Below, one piece after another: positions 10,290-27,022 of a DNA stretch of 30,302 nt. The notes beneath the pieces are model-generated. The model did not search any database, was not told the DNA's origin, and worked only from the letters and a program-made list of their open reading frames with translations. Both the position numbers and the translations under genes were made by a program. Position 1 is the stretch's first letter; each line of letters opens with the position of its first letter. This DNA is from a virus. Location of the stretch: IMG/VR virus record IMGVR_UViG_3300037136_000087, positions 1 to 30,302 of that record. The stretch is one strand, 5' to 3'.

Positions 10290-13200
10290 ATGGCAATTTC
10301 ACCCCAACCCCCATCCAATTCGCTTCCCCAACCTTTGAGTTATGATCAGATTTTGGGTCAGGCCCTCTCTAGCTACGCGGCATCATTGGGGATTAACGAC
10401 TTAAACGTAGGGTCTGCGAACGTTTCCTTTTTTCAAGTTGTCGCGCTTCTCGTTGCACGCAGTTCAGGAGATATTTTTCAGATCCTAAAAGATTATAGTT
10501 TAGACAGGGCTCAGGGTCCAGCGCTTCAAAATCTTGCCATTGAATATGGAGTTCCACCTTTACCAGCGGTTGTAGCCACCGCCTTCATTACGGTAGTAGA
10601 TCTCAGTTTTCAAAAGATTAGCACCGTTATTTATGCTGGCGTGAATCCGCCGATTGCTGGTTCCACGACTATCTATGTGAGCGATGCTTCCAAATTCCCA
10701 GCAACTGGCGCTGTATATTTGGGTCGAGGAACCCCTAATATCGAAGGGCCATTACCCTATTCTGCTGTAATGCCGATCGGATCGTATTGGTCGATTACAC
10801 TTTCTAGCCCTACTACAAAATTTCATAACATCTCAGAATCAGTTATTCTATCGCAAGGTGGAGTTAGAACCGTACCCGTTAATACGACAGTAGTCTCCCC
10901 TGGAATTGGAACAACCCCAAATATTTCATATTCTGTCAGTCAGCAAGGAACCATTCTTGATGGTGAAACTACGGTAACCAATGTTCCAATCACCGCTTTA
11001 ATTCCCGGTTCAGCTGCCAATGTTCCAGCGGGAGCTATCTCACAATTTGCAGGTAACCCTCCTGGGCTTCCAAATGCTAGCGTCACCAACCCCCTAGCAG
11101 TTACTACCGGACAAGATATTGAGACCGATAATCAACTTAGAATTCGCGTTAAAAATGCTTTGGCTTCAACTGGCCTTGGCACCGTAACAGCTATTGAATC
11201 TGCTCTTCAGGGTGTTCAAGATCCTACCTCTTCTGCTACAATCGTAAGCACCGATATTTTGAATACTTCACCTAACACGATTGTATACGTTGACGACGGA
11301 ACCGGATATGAAGCAACACATCAAGGCGTTCCAATTGAATCAATCGTCAATTCGGCACTCGGCGGAGAAAAGTTCTTTCAGTTAGTTACAGGGGGAACTC
11401 AAACTTCCGTAACAAAAGCATTCCTGCAAACGATAGCAACCTCTCCATTCAACCTTTCCGGTGGAGAAATTCTAACAGTTATTGTTGGAAATATTACTTA
11501 CTTTCACACTTTTGTATCGACCGACTTTGCAAATCCGGGTTCAGCCACTGCTTATGAAGTTTGTGCTAGCATTAATGCCGATACTCTTCTTAACTATGAG
11601 GCTGTTACTGCTGGCGGTGGAACTTACGTAGTCATCCGTCCAGAAGATGAAGTAACCAATTCTATCCAAGTGACCACTCCAGCTAGCTCATTGTCTATAG
11701 ATGCGAACACATTTTTGCAATTTCCTTCACAAAAAGCACAAACTCTAATTCTATATAAAAATGGACAACTTCTAACCGAAGATGGGTCTACAGCCTCAAT
11801 TTTTACTCAAGAGCAAAGTTTATGGTCACCTACGATCGCTTCTGGAGATACCATTAGTCTATCCGTAGACGGAACGCTTCCTATTACCTATACTTTGACG
11901 AATGCCATGTTTGTAGCTGAGGGAACTTATACTTCCGTATCTTACTCTAACAGCCTGCAATCTTGGGTAAATGTTCTCAATGCCAACATCACCGGAATCA
12001 CCGCCTCTATCGTAGGATCTACCATAGAAATTACTAGCAATTTAGGCCCAGTAGATAGAGCGGAAGTAACTGTAGTAAACACTATTTCTAATCCAAGTTC
12101 TCTTATTTCGAAAGGTTTTCTTAGCAACTTAGATCTTACTTCTACAGGAGTTGCATCACAATACATCCTAGATAGGAATACGGCCCAAATCGAATTGATT
12201 AACGCTCTAATCAAAGGAGACTCTCTTTCCGCAGGTTGGCTGGTAACAGAAGCAAATATTGAGGCGGCCACCGAATCTTCTGGTAGCGTAACCTTATCGA
12301 CAGATGCCCATGTTTGGATTTCTATTGATACCGATGCCGTTATTATACCTACAATACAAACCGGATCTACCCTATCTGTTTCTAAAATATCTCCAAATGT
12401 CATAAGATACACCGCTAATTCCTCTTCGGCATTTTCTAATGTTCTTACCGGGGATTACGTCATAGTTTGGTCTGCTGAAATTCCAGCAACCGACCGATTA
12501 GAGGGAAGAGTTCATGCTGTAACCGGTTCTACGCTAGATATAAAAATTACCGTTGCGGAATACGCCTTAGCTACTCCAGTAACAAATGCCGCCTTTATTC
12601 AGGGATTTGTAGTTGTTAGAACGGCAAATGTTCCTCAGAAATTTACCGTATTGGCTGGAACTAAGACCTTAGATGTTATTGCGGCAGAATTACAGGCACA
12701 AACAGACGAACTCACATTTGCAGTGTTCGACAATACGAACATTACTGTAACTACAAATACCCTCGGTACGACTGGTCAGATTACCGTATCAGCAGTAGAT
12801 TCGTCTGGGCAACTCCTAGGGTTCGTTAGTGGAACAAATAGTGTTAGCCAAGTTTCATTGCTCGCCTATCAGGAAACTAAGGCCGTTACCGCAGAACTTC
12901 CGTTGTTTTTTCATTCTACCATCAGCGCAGATTCTTACGCCAATCCTCCTTATTCCTTTTTGACTAATTTCGATTCTACCATTTCGCTCCCATCCACATG
13001 GCCAAATGATCTCGTTAGTTTCTTGAATCCATATGGCATCGTTCCAGGCACAATTCTTGATGATGAACAGCCTTCTAATGAAACCGTTCAGATCTCCGCT
13101 CTTTCTGGATCGGCGATTACCATTCTTCCAGTGTATCCGGATGTAAGACGTCTCAGAGTAAACGACAGATTCTTTGTAGCGAACCCTTTAGATTTTGGGT

Positions 13201-16200
13201 ACAATGATACCGTTGTAGCTATTGTGGATAACAATGATCTTGGGGAAACTTATACGATGCCTCTCTATAGGAGAGCTATCGTAAATAGCACCTATGCGCC
13301 CAATGATTATAGTTTCAACGCCTATGATGTGGATGCTGGTGCAACCGCCAACTTTGCTACCAATTTTTCTACGCCCACAGATTTTTTTGCTAATTACAAA
13401 GCTCTCATGCAGGCTAAATACGTCCTTCAAGGTGCAAATGCTCAGACAGCTCTCCTGTACAGATCGGTCCTTTGGGGAAATAGCGGCGAGAATATAAATA
13501 TTTCTTATGTATATCCGACTTCAGCTAATCAGCCTATTAACTCGACTGTCACCATTACTGGTCAAAATAATGTTAGCATCAACATCGGCTTGATATCCGG
13601 CAATCCCATTTCTTCAACTACTGCAGCTAGCACCCAATGGAATGTTACGATTGCTTCCAACACCCCTAGCGCTGGAATTGATCAGGTTACGTATACCTAC
13701 AATGGAACTGGAACCGCTCCCAATTTGACATTGAGTGGTGGCGAATACGTAACAATTCTCCCTTCCACTGGATTTAATGTAAAGAACACCGGAACGTTTA
13801 GGGTGTCAACCGCAGTAGGATATACGCCAACGGCCACCAAATTTAGTGTCCAGGCACCAACGGGAATGGCATTCGCACAAACCAACGTGGTCACGAGCGT
13901 CCTCAACGGTATTAGCTTTTACGCCGCCACTCCTACCAGCGCTGCCGCAATCAACACATACGTAAATGCCAATTTGAGCCAGTACCTTACGTCCACCATC
14001 GTCAACGATGGCGGCACGACTGGATCCGGAATCATTGTACTTAGTACCTACGAAGATAGCGGATTCATGCACCCCTTTTATTACCTTAGAGACGGCATTA
14101 ATTGGATCGCAAGCTCTAATGTTTCTGGAAGCCCACAATTTACACTTAAAGAACCGCTTACTTACTCCAGCGATACGGGATACAGTTTCTTTACCAGTGG
14201 AGATGAAGTTAGACTGATTCCCACTACGATGGAGCAAGTCCAAGAGTTTTGGTCCATATTGGCCGTAACTGGATTTACTACCGTTGGCACCATAGAAGTA
14301 GCAGATCGAGGAACTAGACTGCAGCTAGCAACGGATACCATCGGATCCGTAGGATCCGTTCAAGTCGTCGGAGGTAGCGGAAATGAATATTCCGTACCAG
14401 TTCTCACATCTGGAGGATTGGTTGGAAATAACGAAATGATGGTTTCCGCAAATAGCATCGCTAGTCAGGCAATGGCCAGCGATCAATGGTTCAGACTACA
14501 AGCGCTAAACTATCAGTCTAAAGATACCGGAATCGGCAATAACACTAGTGTTACCGTTCTCAGCAACACTCCCGTTGCAGGAGAATCTACTATTACTCTC
14601 TTAAATCAAGAGACTAACCAGCTTTATTTTGGCGGCCCTAGAAGCAACATTAACGTAGAAGGCGATACTTTCAGAATAGAAAAACAAGGTTATCTCGCTT
14701 GCTTGAGCTGGGATGGAGTAGGAACCTCTCCAGGATTCGGCTCTTCGGTAAACTTTAATGATATTGGCGGTTGGGTCGTAGATGTGTCTGCCGATGGAGT
14801 TTATACCGTAGCGGCCAATCCTTCGCCTCCGCCAGCCACGTTACTGGCTTCAGCCGCCAGCTATGCCATTTTAGCCGCTTCTGCTGTGACCAGCACCGGG
14901 TTCACCGTTCTAATTGGAGATTTAGGCATTTCCCCTGGAACCTCTATTACGGGTTTCCCCCCTGGAACCTATTCTGGCACAGAAAATGTGGATAATTCAG
15001 CAGCGATAACCGCTCAGTCTGATGCCCTTTCGGCCTATACGACCCTATCAACCCATTCATCCACTGTTATTCCCTCAGCTTTGGATGGTCAGACTTTGAC
15101 GGCAGGCTACTACAGTTTCTCTTCTGGAGCGGCGACCCTAGCCCAATCTGGTCCGGGAACCTTGACGTTAAATGGCTCTGCAACCGATGTTTTTGTTATT
15201 ATAACGGCATCGACCTTAACGACGGCAGCCGGTGGAGTTGCCACAATAGCCCTAACTGGGGGAGCGCTGGCCTCCAACGTATATTGGATCATTGGGTCTT
15301 CCGCCACCATTAATTCAGGCGTTGCATGCACATTCCAAGGCAATATCGTCGCTCAAGACTCTATCACCAATACATTAGGCGGTACGGTAAATGGCAGCCT
15401 GATAGCCTTGACTGGCGCTGTGACTCTGAGTGCTGCCGCCATAGTTACAGTTCCATCTTATGCTCCAGTTCCTTCAGGAAGTCCCAATTTTGCAGATCTT
15501 ACTATTGGAGATCTGATCTCCATTTCCGGTTTAACTAATCTCGGCAATAATGGAACTTTCTATGTGACCGGCGTAGCCCCAAATGGCCTGTCTTTTAGTA
15601 TTTCGAATCCCTTAGCAGTAGTTGAAAATGGAACGGCCATTTTAGCTGGAGATTTTACCGCCGACTCTTCAGTTTCTGAAGGGGATACGATGATCCTATC
15701 TTCTCCGTTCGCTCCCCTTAACCAAGGCGAATACAGAGTTATCCGTAGATTCAATGATAGCGTATGGTATGAAAATCCAAATGTTGTTGAAGAAGAAGTG
15801 ACTTGTACGGCCAATAACATTCCAGTTGGCTTTGACGCAACAACTGTTTTCAATGTCACCGTTTCCGGTGGAACCGAGACAGTAACTTGGAACGGTACTG
15901 GAACGCCACCATTTTTAGGCCTAACTTTGCCAGGTGACGTGGTCACATTTGGATCAGGATTTTCGACACCTAATCAGGGCAGTTTCGTAGTAACGGAATC
16001 GGGCGTATCCCAACATCAAGTCGTTCAACTTACGATGCCAGCAGCCTCAACCTTTTCGTCAGCTGGTCCAGGAAACTACTTTGAGATCTATAATGGCGGC
16101 AACGCTAATCAATATTACGTTTGGTATAATGTCCTAGGCGGAAGCAATACTGACCCAGCACCAGTTGGGTTCACAGGGATAGAGGTCTCTATCAATGGCA

Positions 16201-17270
16201 GCGATAATGCTGCGACTGTTGCGAATGAAACGAATACGGCACTTTCAGCACTGGCTGCTATGACCCATTCTGTTTTTGGAAATGTGGTAACGGTTACCGC
16301 TACGATCATCGCTCCTACCAACCCACCAGTAGACGTTTCTATGCCGTCTGCCTTTAGTTTTGCAGTTACTCAGACTGGACAAACATCATTCTTCTCAGTT
16401 ATCAATCCTGCGGCAGTGACACAAACCGGCATCTCTTCTGTAACCTTTTCCGTAAATCGCCCACAGATTCAGTTCTTTCCGTATGAGGCTACGGTTCCTG
16501 GAGATAAGCTGGTGGTCAATGGGTCGGTGCTTGGAGCAGGAAATGCCGGTGTATACAAAATCCTACAGGTTTTGAGTCCGAATACCGTTGTCGTTTCCGG
16601 AATCATTTCTTCTCAAGTCGCCACCAGTTTGGCCGGGAATTCTTCCTCTTTCTCAGTTCAAGAAGGTACGGCATATACCGGATATAAACAAGTTGCATAC
16701 GTAGTTGCGCAATCAGGAATAGCGAATTTCAACAACATAGTATTTAATACTTCGGCCCAGTATGAAAAAATTGACCTATCTGCAAATATATCGATGGTTG
16801 CACTTAACAAATTGAATTTTCCGACCGCGATTAAGACCGGGATCGATGCCTACAATTACGATACGGGGTTAATTGGGCAAGCCAATAGGGTTATATATGG
16901 CGATCCGAGAGACCAAGTTACGTACCCTGGCGTTTCTGCTGCAGGTACTAACATTTTTATTAGAGAGCCCCTATTAAAGAGGATCCAAATCGCATTGGCC
17001 ATTAGGACAAATATCGGCGTGTCTTTCGCTCAAATTACGTCCCAGATTCAAAGTTCCGTATATTCCCTCATCCAGTCCAATCCGTTGGGTCAATCGATCG
17101 ACTTGAGCAGCATCGTTGAGACGGTTCGATTAATTCCAGGAGTGACTTCGGTTGTTATTACGAGCCCCGAGTACAATATCAGCAATGATGAAATAGATTT
17201 ATCAGTTGGTGAAAAGGCCTTCATTGTCAACTTAAACACGGACATTTCCGTAGCTCTTATAGGGTCGTAA
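10290..17270 (+). CDS. Giant baseplate wedge protein (BaseplateJ/gp6-like) with DUF3494 and Ig-like insertions, 2326 aa
   Basis: The two ends are typical of the BaseplateJ/gp6 family. Residues about 230-345 contain ALIPGSAANVPAGAISQF and then GQDIETDNQLRIRVKNAL. Residues about 2225-2320 contain EPLLKRIQIALAIRTNIG and then IVETVRLIPGVTSVVI, the usual C-terminal domain. Known relatives are several hundred residues, so some 1800 residues are inserted between the core halves. The insert is a chain of beta-rich modules: two copies of an Ig-like module (about 1114-1205 and 1850-1928), a DUF3494 ice-binding-like domain (1516-1724), and a 'YYVWYNV' module (1930-2025). The core should dimerise to form the wedge ring; the insert probably projects outward as a surface or adhesive decoration (inference). 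It is followed by a 645-residue gene that shares the same modules. No frameshift was seen. Confidence 0.8.
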   Translation: MAISPQPPSNSLPQPLSYDQILGQALSSYAASLGINDLNVGSANVSFFQVVALLVARSSGDIFQILKDYSLDRAQGPALQNLAIEYGVPPLPAVVATAFITVVDLSFQKISTVIYAGVNPPIAGSTTIYVSDASKFPATGAVYLGRGTPNIEGPLPYSAVMPIGSYWSITLSSPTTKFHNISESVILSQGGVRTVPVNTTVVSPGIGTTPNISYSVSQQGTILDGETTVTNVPITALIPGSAANVPAGAISQFAGNPPGLPNASVTNPLAVTTGQDIETDNQLRIRVKNALASTGLGTVTAIESALQGVQDPTSSATIVSTDILNTSPNTIVYVDDGTGYEATHQGVPIESIVNSALGGEKFFQLVTGGTQTSVTKAFLQTIATSPFNLSGGEILTVIVGNITYFHTFVSTDFANPGSATAYEVCASINADTLLNYEAVTAGGGTYVVIRPEDEVTNSIQVTTPASSLSIDANTFLQFPSQKAQTLILYKNGQLLTEDGSTASIFTQEQSLWSPTIASGDTISLSVDGTLPITYTLTNAMFVAEGTYTSVSYSNSLQSWVNVLNANITGITASIVGSTIEITSNLGPVDRAEVTVVNTISNPSSLISKGFLSNLDLTSTGVASQYILDRNTAQIELINALIKGDSLSAGWLVTEANIEAATESSGSVTLSTDAHVWISIDTDAVIIPTIQTGSTLSVSKISPNVIRYTANSSSAFSNVLTGDYVIVWSAEIPATDRLEGRVHAVTGSTLDIKITVAEYALATPVTNAAFIQGFVVVRTANVPQKFTVLAGTKTLDVIAAELQAQTDELTFAVFDNTNITVTTNTLGTTGQITVSAVDSSGQLLGFVSGTNSVSQVSLLAYQETKAVTAELPLFFHSTISADSYANPPYSFLTNFDSTISLPSTWPNDLVSFLNPYGIVPGTILDDEQPSNETVQISALSGSAITILPVYPDVRRLRVNDRFFVANPLDFGYNDTVVAIVDNNDLGETYTMPLYRRAIVNSTYAPNDYSFNAYDVDAGATANFATNFSTPTDFFANYKALMQAKYVLQGANAQTALLYRSVLWGNSGENINISYVYPTSANQPINSTVTITGQNNVSINIGLISGNPISSTTAASTQWNVTIASNTPSAGIDQVTYTYNGTGTAPNLTLSGGEYVTILPSTGFNVKNTGTFRVSTAVGYTPTATKFSVQAPTGMAFAQTNVVTSVLNGISFYAATPTSAAAINTYVNANLSQYLTSTIVNDGGTTGSGIIVLSTYEDSGFMHPFYYLRDGINWIASSNVSGSPQFTLKEPLTYSSDTGYSFFTSGDEVRLIPTTMEQVQEFWSILAVTGFTTVGTIEVADRGTRLQLATDTIGSVGSVQVVGGSGNEYSVPVLTSGGLVGNNEMMVSANSIASQAMASDQWFRLQALNYQSKDTGIGNNTSVTVLSNTPVAGESTITLLNQETNQLYFGGPRSNINVEGDTFRIEKQGYLACLSWDGVGTSPGFGSSVNFNDIGGWVVDVSADGVYTVAANPSPPPATLLASAASYAILAASAVTSTGFTVLIGDLGISPGTSITGFPPGTYSGTENVDNSAAITAQSDALSAYTTLSTHSSTVIPSALDGQTLTAGYYSFSSGAATLAQSGPGTLTLNGSATDVFVIITASTLTTAAGGVATIALTGGALASNVYWIIGSSATINSGVACTFQGNIVAQDSITNTLGGTVNGSLIALTGAVTLSAAAIVTVPSYAPVPSGSPNFADLTIGDLISISGLTNLGNNGTFYVTGVAPNGLSFSISNPLAVVENGTAILAGDFTADSSVSEGDTMILSSPFAPLNQGEYRVIRRFNDSVWYENPNVVEEEVTCTANNIPVGFDATTVFNVTVSGGTETVTWNGTGTPPFLGLTLPGDVVTFGSGFSTPNQGSFVVTESGVSQHQVVQLTMPAASTFSSAGPGNYFEIYNGGNANQYYVWYNVLGGSNTDPAPVGFTGIEVSINGSDNAATVANETNTALSALAAMTHSVFGNVVTVTATIIAPTNPPVDVSMPSAFSFAVTQTGQTSFFSVINPAAVTQTGISSVTFSVNRPQIQFFPYEATVPGDKLVVNGSVLGAGNAGVYKILQVLSPNTVVVSGIISSQVATSLAGNSSSFSVQEGTAYTGYKQVAYVVAQSGIANFNNIVFNTSAQYEKIDLSANISMVALNKLNFPTAIKTGIDAYNYDTGLIGQANRVIYGDPRDQVTYPGVSAAGTNIFIREPLLKRIQIALAIRTNIGVSFAQITSQIQSSVYSLIQSNPLGQSIDLSSIVETVRLIPGVTSVVITSPEYNISNDEIDLSVGEKAFIVNLNTDISVALIGS
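13629..13905 (+). repeat. Ig-like module A, copy 1 (in the 2326-aa wedge protein)
   Basis: The encoded pattern is STQWNVTIASN, then TYTYNGTGTAPNLTLSGGEYVTI, ending in NTGTFRVSTA. It recurs at 15837-16075 in the same gene and at 17941-18190 in the next gene. The core is W-x-V/I-x-I, then TWNGTGTxP, GxYVxIxxxGF and NxGTFxV. Similarity is at protein level, which fits old duplication of a beta-sandwich surface module. Confidence 0.6.
14835..15462 (+). other. DUF3494 (ice-binding-like adhesin) domain in the wedge protein
   Basis: Residues 1516-1724 carry the whole pattern of the PF11999 family: LLASAASYAILAASAVT at the start, GDLGISPGTSITGFPPGTY, then DALSAYTTL, SALDGQTLTAGYYSF, a DVFVIITASTLTT strand, NVYWIIGSSATINSG, FQGNIVAQDSITNTLGGTVN, and GSLIALTGAVTLSAA. 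The length (about 209 residues) is that of a complete domain. Known members form a right-handed beta-solenoid; some bind ice, while many have no tested ligand. Ice binding is not claimed here. A second, similar copy lies in the 1254-residue fibre. Confidence 0.85.
15837..16075 (+). repeat. Ig-like module A, copy 2 (in the 2326-aa wedge protein)
   Basis: This copy reads ATTVFNVTVSGG, TVTWNGTGTPPFLGL, GDVVTFGSGFS and NQGSFVV. It matches copies at 13629-13905 and 17941-18190 in order and spacing. A partial relative (SPNFADLTIGDLISIS, then NNGTFYVTG) follows the DUF3494 domain at about 15478-15620. Confidence 0.6.
16078..16320 (+). repeat. Module B ('YYVWYNV'), copy 1, in the wedge protein
   Basis: The encoded pattern is NQYYVWYNVLGGSNTDPAPV, then GFTGIEVSINGSDNAATVAN, a small domain found in many phage fibre and baseplate proteins. 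A close copy lies at 18427-18670 in the next gene, with 26 identical bases (16137-16162 against 18493-18518). A more distant relative lies in the 1254-residue fibre at about 24328-24540. Confidence 0.7.
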
Positions 17271-19891: not shown

Positions 19892-20320
19892 TCATGGAAC
19901 CCACTCGCATGAAAGCTTATCCCGAAGTTCTTGGCCTAACTTTCCTTGAACTCTACGGACATAGAGCAGATTCCTTGGTTTTCCCGGAACCTTTTTGCTT
20001 TCCTTGTACGTTCCACTGTTATAGGCGGCAGTAAGGCGACACCAATCATCTGCTCCATAACGGCCCTCTTGATATTTCAAGTAAAGCGCCGCCCACTTCG
20101 CATTTGTGATAGGATTTACAAGATCTTGAGGCCTACCACTATACCCCAGCATTTTGGCCGTATCGAATTTAACTTGGCAAATTCCGTATGAAGGAGAGCC
20201 TCCATCGTGATAGACAGTCACGTTAGTTAGGTTGGTCTCGTAGGTGCAGATAGCTAGAAGAAGAGAGCCTGAAACCTTAGCCGCTTTTGCTGCATTTAAA
20301 ATGATCGCTGTATAGGTCAT
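19892..20320 (-). CDS. Lytic transglycosylase (SLT-like) muramidase, 142 aa
   Basis: The sequence matches the SLT/goose-lysozyme-like fold. LLAICTYETNL supplies the catalytic Glu28, PSYGICQVK at 43-51 is the classical 'GxxQ' segment, NAKWAALYLKYQ at 73-84 follows, and LTAAYNSG at 96-103 is the conserved AYN-G motif. It would cleave the MurNAc-GlcNAc bond of peptidoglycan. A GTG at 20347 would add nine residues, but the ATG at 20320 has GGAGG four bases upstream and is preferred. There is no signal peptide, so it would need a holin for lysis or act as a virion-associated enzyme. It is transcribed against the neighbouring structural genes, and TATAAATG (20336-20329) overlaps its leader. Confidence 0.85.
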   Translation of the reverse strand: MTYTAIILNAAKAAKVSGSLLLAICTYETNLTNVTVYHDGGSPSYGICQVKFDTAKMLGYSGRPQDLVNPITNAKWAALYLKYQEGRYGADDWCRLTAAYNSGTYKESKKVPGKPRNLLYVRRVQGKLGQELRDKLSCEWVP

Positions 20321-20373
20321 TGAACCTCCATTTATAGATCCTAGCACTCATCGAGGCATAAGTCAACTCCGGA

Positions 20374-21621: not shown

Positions 21622-22491
21622 ATGACATTATATGAAATTACAAACACTATCACTGGAATGGGATACGTGGGAATCACCAAAGGTAGGGTAAAACATCGGT
21701 GGTGGTCGCATAAGAAAGATTTGAGAATGGGCAGACACGGAAATCGCTGGCTACAGAATTCTTATAATAAATATGGGCCAGAGGCCTTTGAGTACAAAAT
21801 AAGACAAAAGTGCAATTCCATAGAAGAGTTAGGAAATTTAGAAAAGCAGGTTTTAAAGGAAGAAAAACATAGACTTTACAATATAAAAGAAGGCGGATAC
21901 GATGCCACTCCTGTAAAAATGAGCGAAGATGGCAAAAAGAGAATATCAGAACGTCAAAAGATCCCAGTCGTAGGAATGTCTATAAAAACAGGCGAAATTA
22001 AAGAATATCTGTGCGGCAAAGATACTCAATTAGACGGATTTAATCCAAAAAATATCGGCAAGTGCTGCTCCCTTTCTATTTCTCATGCAAGCGGAAGAAT
22101 CCAACAGGCTATTTCTACGGGGAAATGGGTTTGGATGAGAAAAGATGAATTCAATTTGGAGGAAATGGAACGTAGACGAGAAGTGGCCGTACGTAGAGGA
22201 AACAACGATCAATCGCGAGCTGTAATTGGTAAATCATTGGTAGACGGCTCCGTAGTTCATTTCAGATCGTGTTTAGAGGCTGCGAGAACTATAAATGGAA
22301 CGCACCAAACTATTAGACAGGCATGCTTATGGAGTACCGTCAAATCGCATAAAAAGCACGTATGGGTTTTTGCCGATGAACCCCAACCCACAATCTTATT
22401 AGGAGAGAGATATACTTACGCCCTAGACACGTTTAATGGTCATCGCGTTATAGGTCCCAGATCTAAGCGCGCCTCGATTAAAAAAGTATAA
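21622..22491 (+). CDS. Free-standing GIY-YIG homing endonuclease with NUMOD1-like repeats, 289 aa
   Basis: The N-terminal nuclease domain (1-95) has LYEITN, GYVG at 14-17, the candidate catalytic Arg26, His30, Glu74 in the NLEKQ helix as metal ligand, and the closing LYNIKEGG. The rest holds two NUMOD1-like DNA-binding units: VVGMSIKTGEIKEYL ending in WVWMRKDEF, and AVIGKSLVDGSVVHFRSCLE followed by AARTINGTHQTIRQACLW and ending in HVWVFA. It probably cuts a specific site in phage genomes that lack the gene, so that repair copies it together with its flanks. It sits 15 nt upstream of the 1254-residue fibre gene, with a second GIY-YIG gene just after that fibre. All catalytic positions appear intact. 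Confidence 0.88.
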   Translation: MTLYEITNTITGMGYVGITKGRVKHRWWSHKKDLRMGRHGNRWLQNSYNKYGPEAFEYKIRQKCNSIEELGNLEKQVLKEEKHRLYNIKEGGYDATPVKMSEDGKKRISERQKIPVVGMSIKTGEIKEYLCGKDTQLDGFNPKNIGKCCSLSISHASGRIQQAISTGKWVWMRKDEFNLEEMERRREVAVRRGNNDQSRAVIGKSLVDGSVVHFRSCLEAARTINGTHQTIRQACLWSTVKSHKKHVWVFADEPQPTILLGERYTYALDTFNGHRVIGPRSKRASIKKV

Positions 22492-22506: not shown

Positions 22507-25500
22507 ATGGCAATTTTAAGCACTGGAAATTGGCTTTCCGAGCAGAGAATGGATGTGTCAGACATAAGACGCATCGAATCTGCTGTCAGGAATGACTTTG
22601 ACGAAACGGTGACCTCGATCATCACGGGAACGAGCCAAGGCTACGTCATCCGTGGCTTTTCCATCCTCACCGCCGGTTCCATTGGTAGTCCAGCGAACTC
22701 TCTCGAATTGGTAGTGGATCCAGGCGCAGTCCTCAATATTAACGCTTCTGTATCTGGTACTATTTTCCAAACCCCTATCGGAACGCCAAATCAGGTCCTC
22801 AATGCTGCTACCAACACGAACGTCTCCGGTTCCTTTACGGCAAACTCCACCAATTACGTGGGTATCGATTACAATCGTTTCGCGGATTCAACTACAGATG
22901 TTACGAAATATATTTGGCAAGTCTCCTCCAATTCAGAGATAGAAACGATTGCCCCCGCTGCTCAAACTCTCACATACAAAGTATTCATCACGACCTCTGT
23001 GTGGGCCGTCAACGTTCTTCCCGTTGCGATTGTTACTACCGACAGCAATGGTAATGTAACCTCCATCACGGATGCTAGATGGATGCTTTACAGTCTCCAG
23101 ACTGGCGGCCTTACTCCGAATCAAAGCTACACGTATCCTTGGGCTGCAGGTAGAACCCAACCTCCCGTAACAACGACTTCGGATGCGATAGACCCATTCG
23201 TAGGTGGTGACAAGCAATTAGACTCCCTTAAGGCTTGGATGGACGCCATCATGTCCCAAATTGGAGCTATTCTGGGGGCTCCCTGGTCTTCCTCATTAAA
23301 CGGCCTTTCTCTCCAAAGTATTCTCCAAGATCTTGGCAATACCGTCATTACTGGAGCTGGTGAAATTTCCAATGGTATCTTGCCTAATTCTGATTCCATT
23401 CTGGTTACGACTGGAGTTATTACATCCGGTAGCAATCAGCTCACCAATCTACCATCCGTTGCAGGACTAGCCAACGGGGACTTCATATTTGGTACCGGTA
23501 TTCAAACAGGAACAACGATTCTTAGCATCACTGGTAGCGGACCCTATACCATCACGATGTCAAAGAACGCAACCATTAATGGTTCGGGAATCGGAATTAC
23601 TTTTTATAGCCCTAGCGTTATTACCGCCCCAGGTCAAATTAACTGGGACGATCCTATTTATATCCGAGTTATCGGATCTTCTCTCACCTATGTTTTGGCT
23701 GCCAACCCTTCTTCTACCGATATTACGCTCGCAGATGACGAAGTGGCCTATATCACTTTTATCAGTGAGCAACCGATTGCTCCGAATCTGATTTTTGTTT
23801 TTGGATCCCCCACCGTCATTTCTGTGGGCGCGGTTAGTTGGACGGGTGGCCTATTACCGGGCGATTATATCAAGGTCGCTTCTGACAACACATCCGGATA
23901 TTATCAGATTTTAACAGTAGACAGCCCTTCTCAGGTCACTCTTTCTACCAACGTGCTAGTGGGAGACGATACCGGTGTAGGTGGCGCTCAAGCCGAGTAT
24001 GCATTTGGAAGCTATCTGGCATCTCCTACTCCTTCTACAACTCGTAACATTTATATCTCACCTCGCCCAGAAGTTCCTGCAAACGCCTTTTGGCTCATTT
24101 TGCGAGAAGATAATGGCGGCGCTCCAAGGGTATACATCCGATTCTTAGCGGAAGAGCTTGACAACGGCCAATCTGTAGAAGTAAGTGGAACTACTTCATT
24201 GCAACTCCTGCAATACATTGGTTCTTTGTCGGCCAGCGATTCTTCTCCACAATACGTATCTGCCTTAAATCCAGGATCATTGCCTCAGATCACGAGCATC
24301 GGCATTGGTGCCGGATCTACTATTACTGCAGGACAATACTTTTTCATTAGTTCTTCCGCTGATGCTAGAGAATACGCTGTTTGGTTTAAAGTAGATGGAG
24401 TCGGCGCAGCTCCATCGATTCCAAATATTAATTCGTTCATAGAAGTCGATATTCTCAGTACAGATACTGCCGCACAAGTTTCTGCTAAATTAAATATCGC
24501 TCTTGATACTACTCCTTCTGGAGATTTTAGTTCCCTAGCTAGTAGCGAGTACATCTTTACTACAAGTCCAGCGAATGCTACCGCTGGGGCCACTTACACC
24601 AACAATGGTCAAACTTTTACTGTAGTGTCTACTGCCTCTGGCGCCACCACTCTGGTCACTACCGGAACCGGGGCACCTGCCCTTGCCGGATCGAGTCTTT
24701 TGGCATCGGCATCAAACTATGGAATTTTAGCTGCCTCAGCAATAACAAATAGTGTTGGAACAAGCATTGTCAATGGGGATTTGGGAGAATATCCTGGTTC
24801 TACTGTTACTGGTGCCTTTACCGTATCAGGCTCCACTGATTTAGGAAATGCAGCCGCTCATACTGCTCAGAACGATGCCCTCTCAGCCTATACCACTTTA
24901 GCAGCCCACTCTTCTACAACCATTCCCTCCGCCCTTGATGGCCAAACTCTAACCGCTGGCTACTACAGTTTCACTTCCGGAGCCGCAACTTTGGCTCAAT
25001 CGGGACCAGGAACATTGACCCTTAATGGTTCAGCAACTGACATTTTTGTTATCAAAACTGCCTCAACACTAACGACTGGTGCTGGCGGAGCCGCCACCAT
25101 TTCCTTGACCGGTGGTGCTTTAGCCCAGAACGTTTACTGGGTAGTTGGCAGTTCTGCTACCATCAATTCCGGCACTGCTGGAACCTTTAACGGAAATATC
25201 ATAGCGCAAGCAAGCATCACAAATACCCTTGGCGGAGTTGTCAATGGTAGCCTTATTGCCCTAACGGCTGCAGTAACCCTAAGTGCCATAACCACCATCA
25301 ATGCGATTCCTGGCGCTTCTTCTGGAACGCTCACCAAAGCAACGGGTACTGGCGACGCTACAATTACATTTTCGGCTTTTTCTCTATCGTCTCTTATTGT
25401 AACCAATACTTCTGCTGGAACAGCAAATCCTACGACTAATTTTAATGTCGGCGCCCCATTCGCTGTATTTACGATTCAATCTGGAACCGGTGTCGGAAAC

Positions 25501-26271
25501 TACATCATCCACGATGGCGACAACCTTACATTAGCCATTAAAGAATTAGATGAGGCTATTGGCAATATTGAGTCTGCATTGAATTCCCCTTCATACGATG
25601 AAGTCATCGAGATAGTTGCTTCTGGCGCAACTCCTCCTACTTCATTGAACGGTCCAATCGCCAATGGAACTCTCATTACTCTTCCCAACAATTCCAGGGA
25701 AGGAAATATTGCCCAGTACTATACGGTTGGTAAGGGCGTATTGATGGTGTTCTTGAACGGCCAATTCATGGACGTGGAGAGCAATGTCTATGTGGAAGTA
25801 GGGGCGTCAGGTGCTCCAAGTAATCAAATTCAAATTTTAACGTTGCCGGGCGGCGGCCTAGTTGTCGGCGATGAATTGGAAATTAGAATTAGCAGCGGTG
25901 GCGGTGGAGGAAGTGGTGGAGGCATAGGCCCTGTAGGTCCAGAAGGACCACAAGGTCCTCGTGGATTCGATGCCATTCATGGCCCCTTTGCTATCTCAAC
26001 AAAAAATGGTCCTACAACCTACAATGTTCTTTCTGTAGATTGTTTTTTGCTGGCCAATACTTCTGGAGGAACAGTAAATTTTGACTTACCGGCAGCGTCT
26101 ACTGTAACTGGAAATGCGTTCTACTTTAAAAAGACTTCACCAGACTTTAACTACATGAACATAGTCGCATCGGGGGGAGATCTGATCGATGGTTTTGGTT
26201 CTCTAACCACAAACACCCAATACGAAGAATTCGGGCTCGTCTCGGACGGGTCAAAATGGAATATATTTTAA
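22507..26271 (+). CDS. Tail fibre protein with DUF3494 ice-binding-like domain and collagen-like segment, 1254 aa
   Basis: The N-terminal 215 residues (LSEQRMDVSDIRRIESAVRN; GYVIRGFSILTAGSIG) are probably the baseplate attachment domain. Residues about 219-300 are helical (DKQLDSLKAWMDAIMSQIGA). Beta-rich shaft modules follow, including a distant module B (about 608-678). A 'TYTNNGQTFTV' module starts near 690 and is split by a DUF3494 domain (729-937); its second half (SSGTLTKATGTGDATITFSA) resumes right afterwards. The C-terminal third has a trimer-type LVVGDELEIRIS segment, a glycine-rich hinge, a short collagen-like GPVGPEGPQGPRGF run (1141-1154), and an 80-residue head that may bind the receptor. 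Fibre and collagen features suggest a trimer. The gene is flanked on both sides by GIY-YIG endonucleases. Confidence 0.82.
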   Translation: MAILSTGNWLSEQRMDVSDIRRIESAVRNDFDETVTSIITGTSQGYVIRGFSILTAGSIGSPANSLELVVDPGAVLNINASVSGTIFQTPIGTPNQVLNAATNTNVSGSFTANSTNYVGIDYNRFADSTTDVTKYIWQVSSNSEIETIAPAAQTLTYKVFITTSVWAVNVLPVAIVTTDSNGNVTSITDARWMLYSLQTGGLTPNQSYTYPWAAGRTQPPVTTTSDAIDPFVGGDKQLDSLKAWMDAIMSQIGAILGAPWSSSLNGLSLQSILQDLGNTVITGAGEISNGILPNSDSILVTTGVITSGSNQLTNLPSVAGLANGDFIFGTGIQTGTTILSITGSGPYTITMSKNATINGSGIGITFYSPSVITAPGQINWDDPIYIRVIGSSLTYVLAANPSSTDITLADDEVAYITFISEQPIAPNLIFVFGSPTVISVGAVSWTGGLLPGDYIKVASDNTSGYYQILTVDSPSQVTLSTNVLVGDDTGVGGAQAEYAFGSYLASPTPSTTRNIYISPRPEVPANAFWLILREDNGGAPRVYIRFLAEELDNGQSVEVSGTTSLQLLQYIGSLSASDSSPQYVSALNPGSLPQITSIGIGAGSTITAGQYFFISSSADAREYAVWFKVDGVGAAPSIPNINSFIEVDILSTDTAAQVSAKLNIALDTTPSGDFSSLASSEYIFTTSPANATAGATYTNNGQTFTVVSTASGATTLVTTGTGAPALAGSSLLASASNYGILAASAITNSVGTSIVNGDLGEYPGSTVTGAFTVSGSTDLGNAAAHTAQNDALSAYTTLAAHSSTTIPSALDGQTLTAGYYSFTSGAATLAQSGPGTLTLNGSATDIFVIKTASTLTTGAGGAATISLTGGALAQNVYWVVGSSATINSGTAGTFNGNIIAQASITNTLGGVVNGSLIALTAAVTLSAITTINAIPGASSGTLTKATGTGDATITFSAFSLSSLIVTNTSAGTANPTTNFNVGAPFAVFTIQSGTGVGNYIIHDGDNLTLAIKELDEAIGNIESALNSPSYDEVIEIVASGATPPTSLNGPIANGTLITLPNNSREGNIAQYYTVGKGVLMVFLNGQFMDVESNVYVEVGASGAPSNQIQILTLPGGGLVVGDELEIRISSGGGGGSGGGIGPVGPEGPQGPRGFDAIHGPFAISTKNGPTTYNVLSVDCFLLANTSGGTVNFDLPAASTVTGNAFYFKKTSPDFNYMNIVASGGDLIDGFGSLTTNTQYEEFGLVSDGSKWNIF
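24691..25318 (+). other. DUF3494 (ice-binding-like adhesin) domain in the 1254-aa fibre
   Basis: Residues 729-937 carry SLLASASNYGILAASAIT, GDLGEYPGSTVTGAF, DALSAYTTL, SALDGQTLTAGYYSF, DIFVIKTASTLTT, NVYWVVGSSATINSG, FNGNIIAQASITNTLGG and GSLIALTAAVTLSA. The wedge-protein copy has the same segments in the same order, several of them residue-for-residue identical, while the DNA differs at many third codon positions. The two are therefore old paralogues or separate captures, held by selection on the protein. The domain interrupts a repeat module of the fibre. Confidence 0.85.
25921..25968 (+). other. Collagen-like Gly-X-Y segment in the fibre
   Basis: The codons read GIGPVGPEGPQGPRGF (residues 1139-1154), about four to five Gly-X-Y triplets after a glycine/serine-rich linker. 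Such short collagen-like runs act as triple-helical joints in trimeric phage fibres, here between the shaft and the C-terminal head. Confidence 0.7.
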
Positions 26272-26272
26272 T

Positions 26273-27022
26273 ATGTTAATATATAAATTGACCAATTTAT
26301 TGAACGGTAAGATCTACGTAGGAAAGACTAAAAATTCCCTATCCGATAGACTATCTACGCATAAAAGTGAAGCAAAACGAAGTCGATCTAATCAATATAT
26401 CCATAAAGCAATAAGAAAATATGGATGGGAAAATTTTAAATCGGAAATTATAGAAGACAATATAGATAGTCTGAAAAATCTTAATAATAGAGAGATATTT
26501 TATATTGCCCTATATAATTCCACCAATAGGGGTATTGGATACAATTTAAGCCCAGGAGGAGACGGCGGTCACGGACTTAGTGGGCCAGCACATCATTGTT
26601 TTGGTAAAAAACTTCCATGGCTATCGGAAAAAAATAAGAAAAATAAAGGGAAAACATACGAAGAAATATATGGAGTAGAAAAAGCCGAAGAAATGAAAAA
26701 GTCTATGTCTGATATTCAGACCGGAAGAATTCATTCCGAAGAGTCCAAGAATAAGGGCGGTGTTGCTAGAAAAAAGGCTTGGAAGAGAGGCGTCTACGAT
26801 AAACCAGAAATTCGAGCCGCATTTTCCTATAATAAGGGAAAGCCCAGTGCTAGAAGGGTGAGGGTATACAGTCCGGAGCTTAATATGGAATTCGAGTCTT
26901 TGGCGGCAGCTGCGACACATATAAAAACTACTCCAGGGAACATTTGTAGTGTGGTAAAGGGCAACCTTAAGCATATTAAGGGTTATACCTTTGTGAAGGT
27001 AGAGAATAAAAATGTCCTATAA
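26273..27022 (+). CDS. Free-standing GIY-YIG homing endonuclease with NUMOD3- and NUMOD1-like units, 249 aa
   Basis: The nuclease domain (1-95) has IYKLTN, IYVG at 14-17, Arg26, His30, Glu74 in NREIFYIALY, and GIGYNLSPGG. A lysine-rich middle holds NUMOD3-like units (KGKTYEEIYGVEKAEEMKKS; GRIHSEESKNKGG). The C-terminus (VRVYSPELNMEFESLAAAAT, then HIKTTPGNICSVVKG and HIKGYTFVKV) is a NUMOD1/IENR1-like DNA-binding unit. The ATG lies one base after the stop of the 1254-residue fibre, and the 3' end overlaps the next fibre gene by 11 nt. The gene is visibly richer in A and T than its neighbours, which fits horizontal acquisition. The key residues look intact, so it may be active. Confidence 0.9.
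   Translation: MLIYKLTNLLNGKIYVGKTKNSLSDRLSTHKSEAKRSRSNQYIHKAIRKYGWENFKSEIIEDNIDSLKNLNNREIFYIALYNSTNRGIGYNLSPGGDGGHGLSGPAHHCFGKKLPWLSEKNKKNKGKTYEEIYGVEKAEEMKKSMSDIQTGRIHSEESKNKGGVARKKAWKRGVYDKPEIRAAFSYNKGKPSARRVRVYSPELNMEFESLAAAATHIKTTPGNICSVVKGNLKHIKGYTFVKVENKNVL

Follow-up and report, generated by a model that had tools for sequence, protein, structure and literature searches.

Why should a structural protein of a phage baseplate contain a domain of the ice-binding DUF3494 family (PF11999)? Cellular DUF3494 ice-binding proteins are, as far as known, secreted or carried at the cell surface. The window analysed here is a whole 30.3 kb virus record that holds tail and baseplate genes. Its open reading frame at 10290–17270 (+) encodes a Baseplate J/gp6-like wedge protein of 2326 aa, matching PF04865 (Baseplate_J) at aa 194–298 (E 9.3e-12) and phrog_6, 'baseplate wedge subunit' (E 8.5e-23), in agreement with an earlier note on this DNA that had called the carrier a gp6/gpJ-like wedge protein. 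These matches fall in the N-terminal part, whose conserved stretch spans aa 8–353 (10311–11348, +; phrog_6 match and similarity to the J protein of phage Mx1); the identity is completed by a conserved C-terminal part at aa 2057–2326 (16458–17267, +), defined by an alignment of relatives and with 188 relatives in IMG/VR. Among cultured phages, Myxococcus phage Mx1 (OR576727, L047) is the closest relative and has a homologous J and baseplate protein; its J is 40% identical to that of the window over aa 18–353 and 36.7% over the whole protein. This kinship makes Myxococcota a first guess for the hosts of the carrier phages. Mx1 also encodes nicotinamide phosphoribosyltransferase and nicotinamide-nucleotide adenylyltransferase, an NAD salvage pair, between its baseplate genes. 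The note had described the two wedge ends as separated by about 1800 residues that include a full DUF3494 domain. The domain is indeed there, but most of this long middle is typical of the lineage and is not ice-binding insertion. We rejected the idea that the entire middle was inserted, since wedge orthologues without the domain are still about 1770–2200 aa long (Mx1 J, 1925 aa).

The wedge insert belongs to the DUF3494 family by sequence and by fold. An hmmscan of the wedge protein placed PF11999 at aa 1527–1718 (E 1.5e-35), and at the nucleotide level the match runs from 14868 to 15443 (+), covering model positions 1–207 of 208 at 130 bits against a curated cut-off of 28.7. The domain itself extends over J aa 1518–1722 (14841–15455, +), so that the complete domain proposed in the note at 14835–15462, for which it had suggested a PF11999 search, was placed correctly to within a few residues. 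We modelled wedge aa 1385–1845 with AlphaFold2 using 36 related sequences. The DUF3494 blocks were mostly above 90 pLDDT, with a bracing helix at 186–203, and the residues on either side were below 50 pLDDT, a low confidence that is consistent with flexible linkers. A Foldseek search of the PDB with the modelled domain returned 31 matches with E <0.001, all 31 of them ice-binding proteins, and the first match after these appeared only at E 0.056. The match to 6eio had E 2.9e-15, a target-normalised TM of 0.81 and 39% identity in the fold alignment; for 7bwy the target-normalised TM was 0.87. The predicted fold is a beta-solenoid with a bracing helix. A low-complexity or chance match was rejected on the basis of an E value of 1e-35 together with the matching fold.

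The domain sits in the wedge protein as a cassette of Pro-rich linker, DUF3494 and Pro-rich linker (14814–15473, +), 220 aa that are absent from empty-site orthologues. The orthologues L210/L211 (2097 aa, 71% identity) and L218 (2390 aa, 73% identity) are collinear with the window protein across the site and lack its aa 1509–1728. Because otherwise collinear orthologues do without it, the domain does not belong to the usual fold of the wedge. As the earlier note had suggested looking for, other phage J proteins in IMG/VR carry it too: the window's site (site A) is occupied in 8 of 51 distinct wedge orthologues, and a second site (site B; aa 919–924, 13044–13061, +), empty in the window, in 3 of 47, with G002, L213 and L217 holding an additional DUF3494 near window aa 916–924. 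The contig is metagenomic, and a bacterial ice-binding gene could have been joined in silico to phage genes; we regard such an artefact as exceedingly improbable, given that the frame is unbroken for 2326 codons, that L213, L215, L216 and L217 carry the wedge domain at the same place, and that a near-identical contig has the second copy described below at 99%. An assembly chimera was rejected because these four contigs are independent. A very close contig, L206, carries in J, at window aa 1891/1892, an inserted 70-aa module (M70) that is missing from the window, which implies that insertion or loss in J is recent and continuing.

We found a second DUF3494 domain in the window, overlooked in the earlier note. 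It lies at 24694–25308 (+; PF11999 E 1.8e-33, aa 740–929) in a 1254-aa tail protein encoded at 22507–26271 (+) that contains a collagen-like GPxGPxG stretch; this protein has no PHROG match and is termed fibre-like from its position and composition. Both window copies score 123–130 bits, far above the PF11999 cut-off. The second copy is nested inside a split M70 module, detected with a home-made profile as an N-terminal part at 24547–24693 (+; model 1–49, E 5e-15) and a C-terminal part at 25309–25380 (+; profile match at aa 923–963, overlapping the end of DUF3494, E 6e-6). M70 (~70 aa, of the TLTKxSGTGDATITFSAF type) is scattered through structural proteins of these phages in up to five copies per protein, as seen in the window (24547–25380), L206, L042, L078 and L087; in J of G002 its halves are seemingly in swapped order. 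Two GIY-YIG homing-endonuclease-like genes, at 21622–22491 and 26273–27022, lie on either side of the fibre-like gene, and L206 lacks most of window 26242–27017, including the second of them. A transglycosylase SLT protein (PF01464, E 7.8e-13) is encoded at 19892–20347 (−), among the tail genes but on the other strand; this may be a lysis or tail-lysozyme gene.

Scans of IMG/VR yielded 98 related places and about 70 distinct phage ORFs with the domain, in a lineage of large contractile-tailed phages. Carrier classes were set by the sequence outside DUF3494. Among the 70 ORFs were 19 tail sheaths, 10 J/wedge proteins, 7 fibre-like proteins of the window type, 4 of a second fibre-like class, 7 of a ~540-aa class, 14 putative decoration proteins and 9 others, some of the carriers being small putative decoration or virion proteins; the 'fibre-like' and 'decoration' labels derive from composition and similarity between carriers and are named by no family model. 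Single contigs contain up to five DUF3494 matches, and several of 150–177 kb contain none. Some members of the ~540-aa class have CHB_HEX_C_1 domains. A class of ~540–660 aa in L030, L363, L364, L365 and L366 carries a different, higher-scoring DUF3494 (up to 223 bits), which in L363 and L364 sits behind chitobiase-C-terminal-like repeats. We conclude that virion proteins of several unrelated kinds (wedge, fibre-like, sheath and putative decoration proteins) can carry the domain as an optional insert. It is missing from many orthologues, which manage without it, and is therefore not essential.

The sheath carriers were identified by PHROG (E 1.4e-21) and by fold, with matches to the phage 812 sheath (E 3.4e-16) and to ice-binding proteins over about 148 columns. 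DUF3494 is present in 12 of 56 distinct sheath orthologues, and an empty site is provided by L292, a 716-aa sheath without the domain that is 72% identical to a 918-aa sheath with it. In sheaths the domain is circularly permuted, its C-terminal part preceding its N-terminal part, and it is still modelled as an ice-binding fold. Permuted copies also occur in the wedge protein of L231 and the fibre-like protein of L065, and L062 has two DUF3494 domains in tandem. This combination suggests that the permuted form arose when a tandem duplicate was trimmed.

When cellular relatives were included in a tree, 69 phage copies formed one clade without cellular members (SH-aLRT 98–99), although cells were represented by the 80 best loci of a single scan, which may have missed a closer cellular source. 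Carrier types are mixed within the phage clade, which indicates that DUF3494 has moved between proteins. Five copies of the ~540-aa class (P540-II type) fell apart from the clade, near second domains of Bacteroidota proteins. The two-capture grouping had SH-aLRT support of 100 and 97, and the tree thus suggests a second, independent capture; a single origin was not rejected by an AU test (p 0.093). The two window copies share 74% amino acid and 65% nucleotide identity, and their third codon positions are only 35.5% identical, near saturation. Such protein conservation alongside nearly saturated third positions indicates purifying selection and an old separation, and the same saturation led us to reject that the two copies were recently duplicated or homogenised by gene conversion.

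Cellular DUF3494 proteins (EfcIBP, 6eio; AnpIBP, 7bwx; SfIBP_1, 6bg8; FfIBP, 4nu2) belong to the same family and share with the phage copies the beta-solenoid, the bracing helix and conserved Thr/Ser in candidate columns assigned by sequence. The phage copies differ in being internal insertions in virion proteins, in forming a separate clade with small insertions of its own and in being circularly permuted in sheaths. Decoration by Ig-like domains is already familiar in phages. Ig-like domains (T4 Hoc; type 2/3 tail sheath domains) are likewise accessory, promiscuous beta domains; they are exchanged among virion proteins, are proposed as carbohydrate binders and are added to proteins of the capsid, sheath, fibre and baseplate, where they probably serve weak attachment (PMC9230969, PMC10385173). 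Their fold is unrelated, DUF3494 being an ice-binding-type solenoid and not an immunoglobulin-like beta sandwich (Foldseek), and the available portion of a phage tail sheath survey does not mention such a solenoid among extra domains.

The fold search of BFVD, a viral fold library, gave three Hyperionvirus proteins as its only significant matches and no phage protein; these have the same domain in a giant virus rather than a phage. Two domain queries found no match in the phages of GenBank (50,697 records), and the 169.6 kb genome of Mx1 has no PF11999 match even at E 1. Neither DUF3494 together with phage nor viral ice-binding at Stordalen was found in the open PMC literature, and the former could have been described in a subscription journal or on bioRxiv. 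The earlier statement that no baseplate with this domain had been described fits the GenBank, BFVD and open PMC results, and it seems that an ice-binding-type solenoid plugged into wedge, sheath and fibre-like proteins has not been described before. Another parallel comes from bacteria, where the ice-binding domain of MpIBP belongs to a family other than DUF3494. Split domains of bacterial adhesins let a ligand-binding domain project outwards, and in MpIBP-type RTX ice adhesins a ligand-binding domain likewise buds from a host domain and faces the environment, although these are bacterial giant adhesins (PMC12077191). In the available text of PMC11515562, which also names Synechococcus phage S-SKS1, PF11999 auxiliary genes of Arctic surface-microlayer viruses are read as host-cryoprotecting; the domain is the same and is not placed there on virion structural proteins.

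Does the phage domain bind ice? Ten positions in two candidate outward columns, assigned by sequence and not on coordinates, are mostly Thr/Ser in the phage copies, as in EfcIBP. These ladder residues are kept in about 60–99% of phage copies, and the last rows of the columns hold Asn and Ser in phages versus Gly and Asp in cells. Conservation of the ladder makes ice binding plausible, but only tentatively so, as other ligands fit equally; it may instead reflect fold stability, because Thr/Ser columns are a general feature of the cellular family. True ice binding would anchor virions to ice or limit recrystallisation and thereby aid freeze–thaw survival in seasonally frozen soil, a possible role that we do not favour. 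It is in keeping with the nearest solved relatives, which are ice-binding proteins, with columns like those of EfcIBP, whose ice activity is real though modest (PMC12337378), and with the presumed origin of many source metagenomes (IMG 3300014501, 33000286xx–31251, 33000150xx–152xx) in peat/permafrost at Stordalen and in soils of glacier forefields; a search of papers for the IMG project numbers found none. Against it, the mapped positions are Thr/Ser and show no apparent alanine trough like that of hyperactive SfIBP, and DUF3494 also occurs in substrate-binding proteins from non-frozen settings (PMC12337378). An alanine column goes with strong ice binding, whereas Ser/Thr goes with less activity and with proteins from sediment, rock or the subsurface (PMC12337378). 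The broader proposal that large soil phages coat baseplate, sheath, fibres and capsid decorations with true ice-binding solenoids, making the virion ice- or freeze-adapted, is more doubtful still.

The domain could instead recognise host-surface glycans as an accessory adsorption domain related to host range, an option to be held with similar reserve. In its favour are the nature of the carriers (baseplate, fibre-like and sheath proteins), the strong protein constraint and a sister carrier class with CHB_HEX_C_1 domains, which are frequent in carbohydrate-active proteins. Yet the domain also occurs on sheath and decoration-like proteins and not on receptor-binding tips alone, and its candidate face is conserved across phages, unlike host-specific diversification. 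If the domain had no ligand, it could act as a rigid spacer or stabiliser that exposed loops tolerate. Such a role would suit the variable presence of the domain between close orthologues and the insertion of another module, M70, in the same proteins. We consider it unlikely, since one specific solenoid lineage is under strong purifying selection in many unrelated carriers and may have been joined by a second independent capture.

By analogy with phage Ig-like domains, we favour a reading in which DUF3494 is a mobile binding module displayed on the virion surface, with a probability of roughly 0.6, and virion attachment of some kind seems to us about as probable. One ice-binding-type beta-solenoid lineage would have been captured long ago from a cellular source and later copied and moved among loops of the wedge, fibre-like, sheath and putative decoration proteins. 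Within the wedge protein, flexible Pro-rich linkers would join DUF3494 to a loop in a small beta domain, and it should therefore project from the baseplate with wedge assembly undisturbed. Many copies per particle could then provide weak multivalent attachment to a repeating surface, with ice, particle or peat polysaccharide, biofilm matrix and host envelope glycan as candidates, and such attachment would keep the virion near hosts ahead of true receptor engagement. The computations show what the domain is and how it folds, that it is inserted as a module, how it is spread over virion proteins and that its protein sequence is constrained. Exposure on the particle, a binding function, its ligand and its benefit are what we infer here, and the suggestion that the domain tethers virions to ice, particles, polysaccharide or host surfaces has the same standing.

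The wedge domain singled out in the earlier note is thus one instance of a much wider phenomenon in uncultured bacterial viruses. PF11999 matches in this lineage should be read as particle parts, not as genes that shield the host from frost, and the domain probably makes the particle stick to its surroundings or its host. The sheath copies are natural circular permutants of the ice-binding fold that protein engineers could use. Whether the particles bind ice is a question that can be tested directly; if these phages do wear a coat of ice-binding solenoids, it would be the first virion-borne ice-binding system described.
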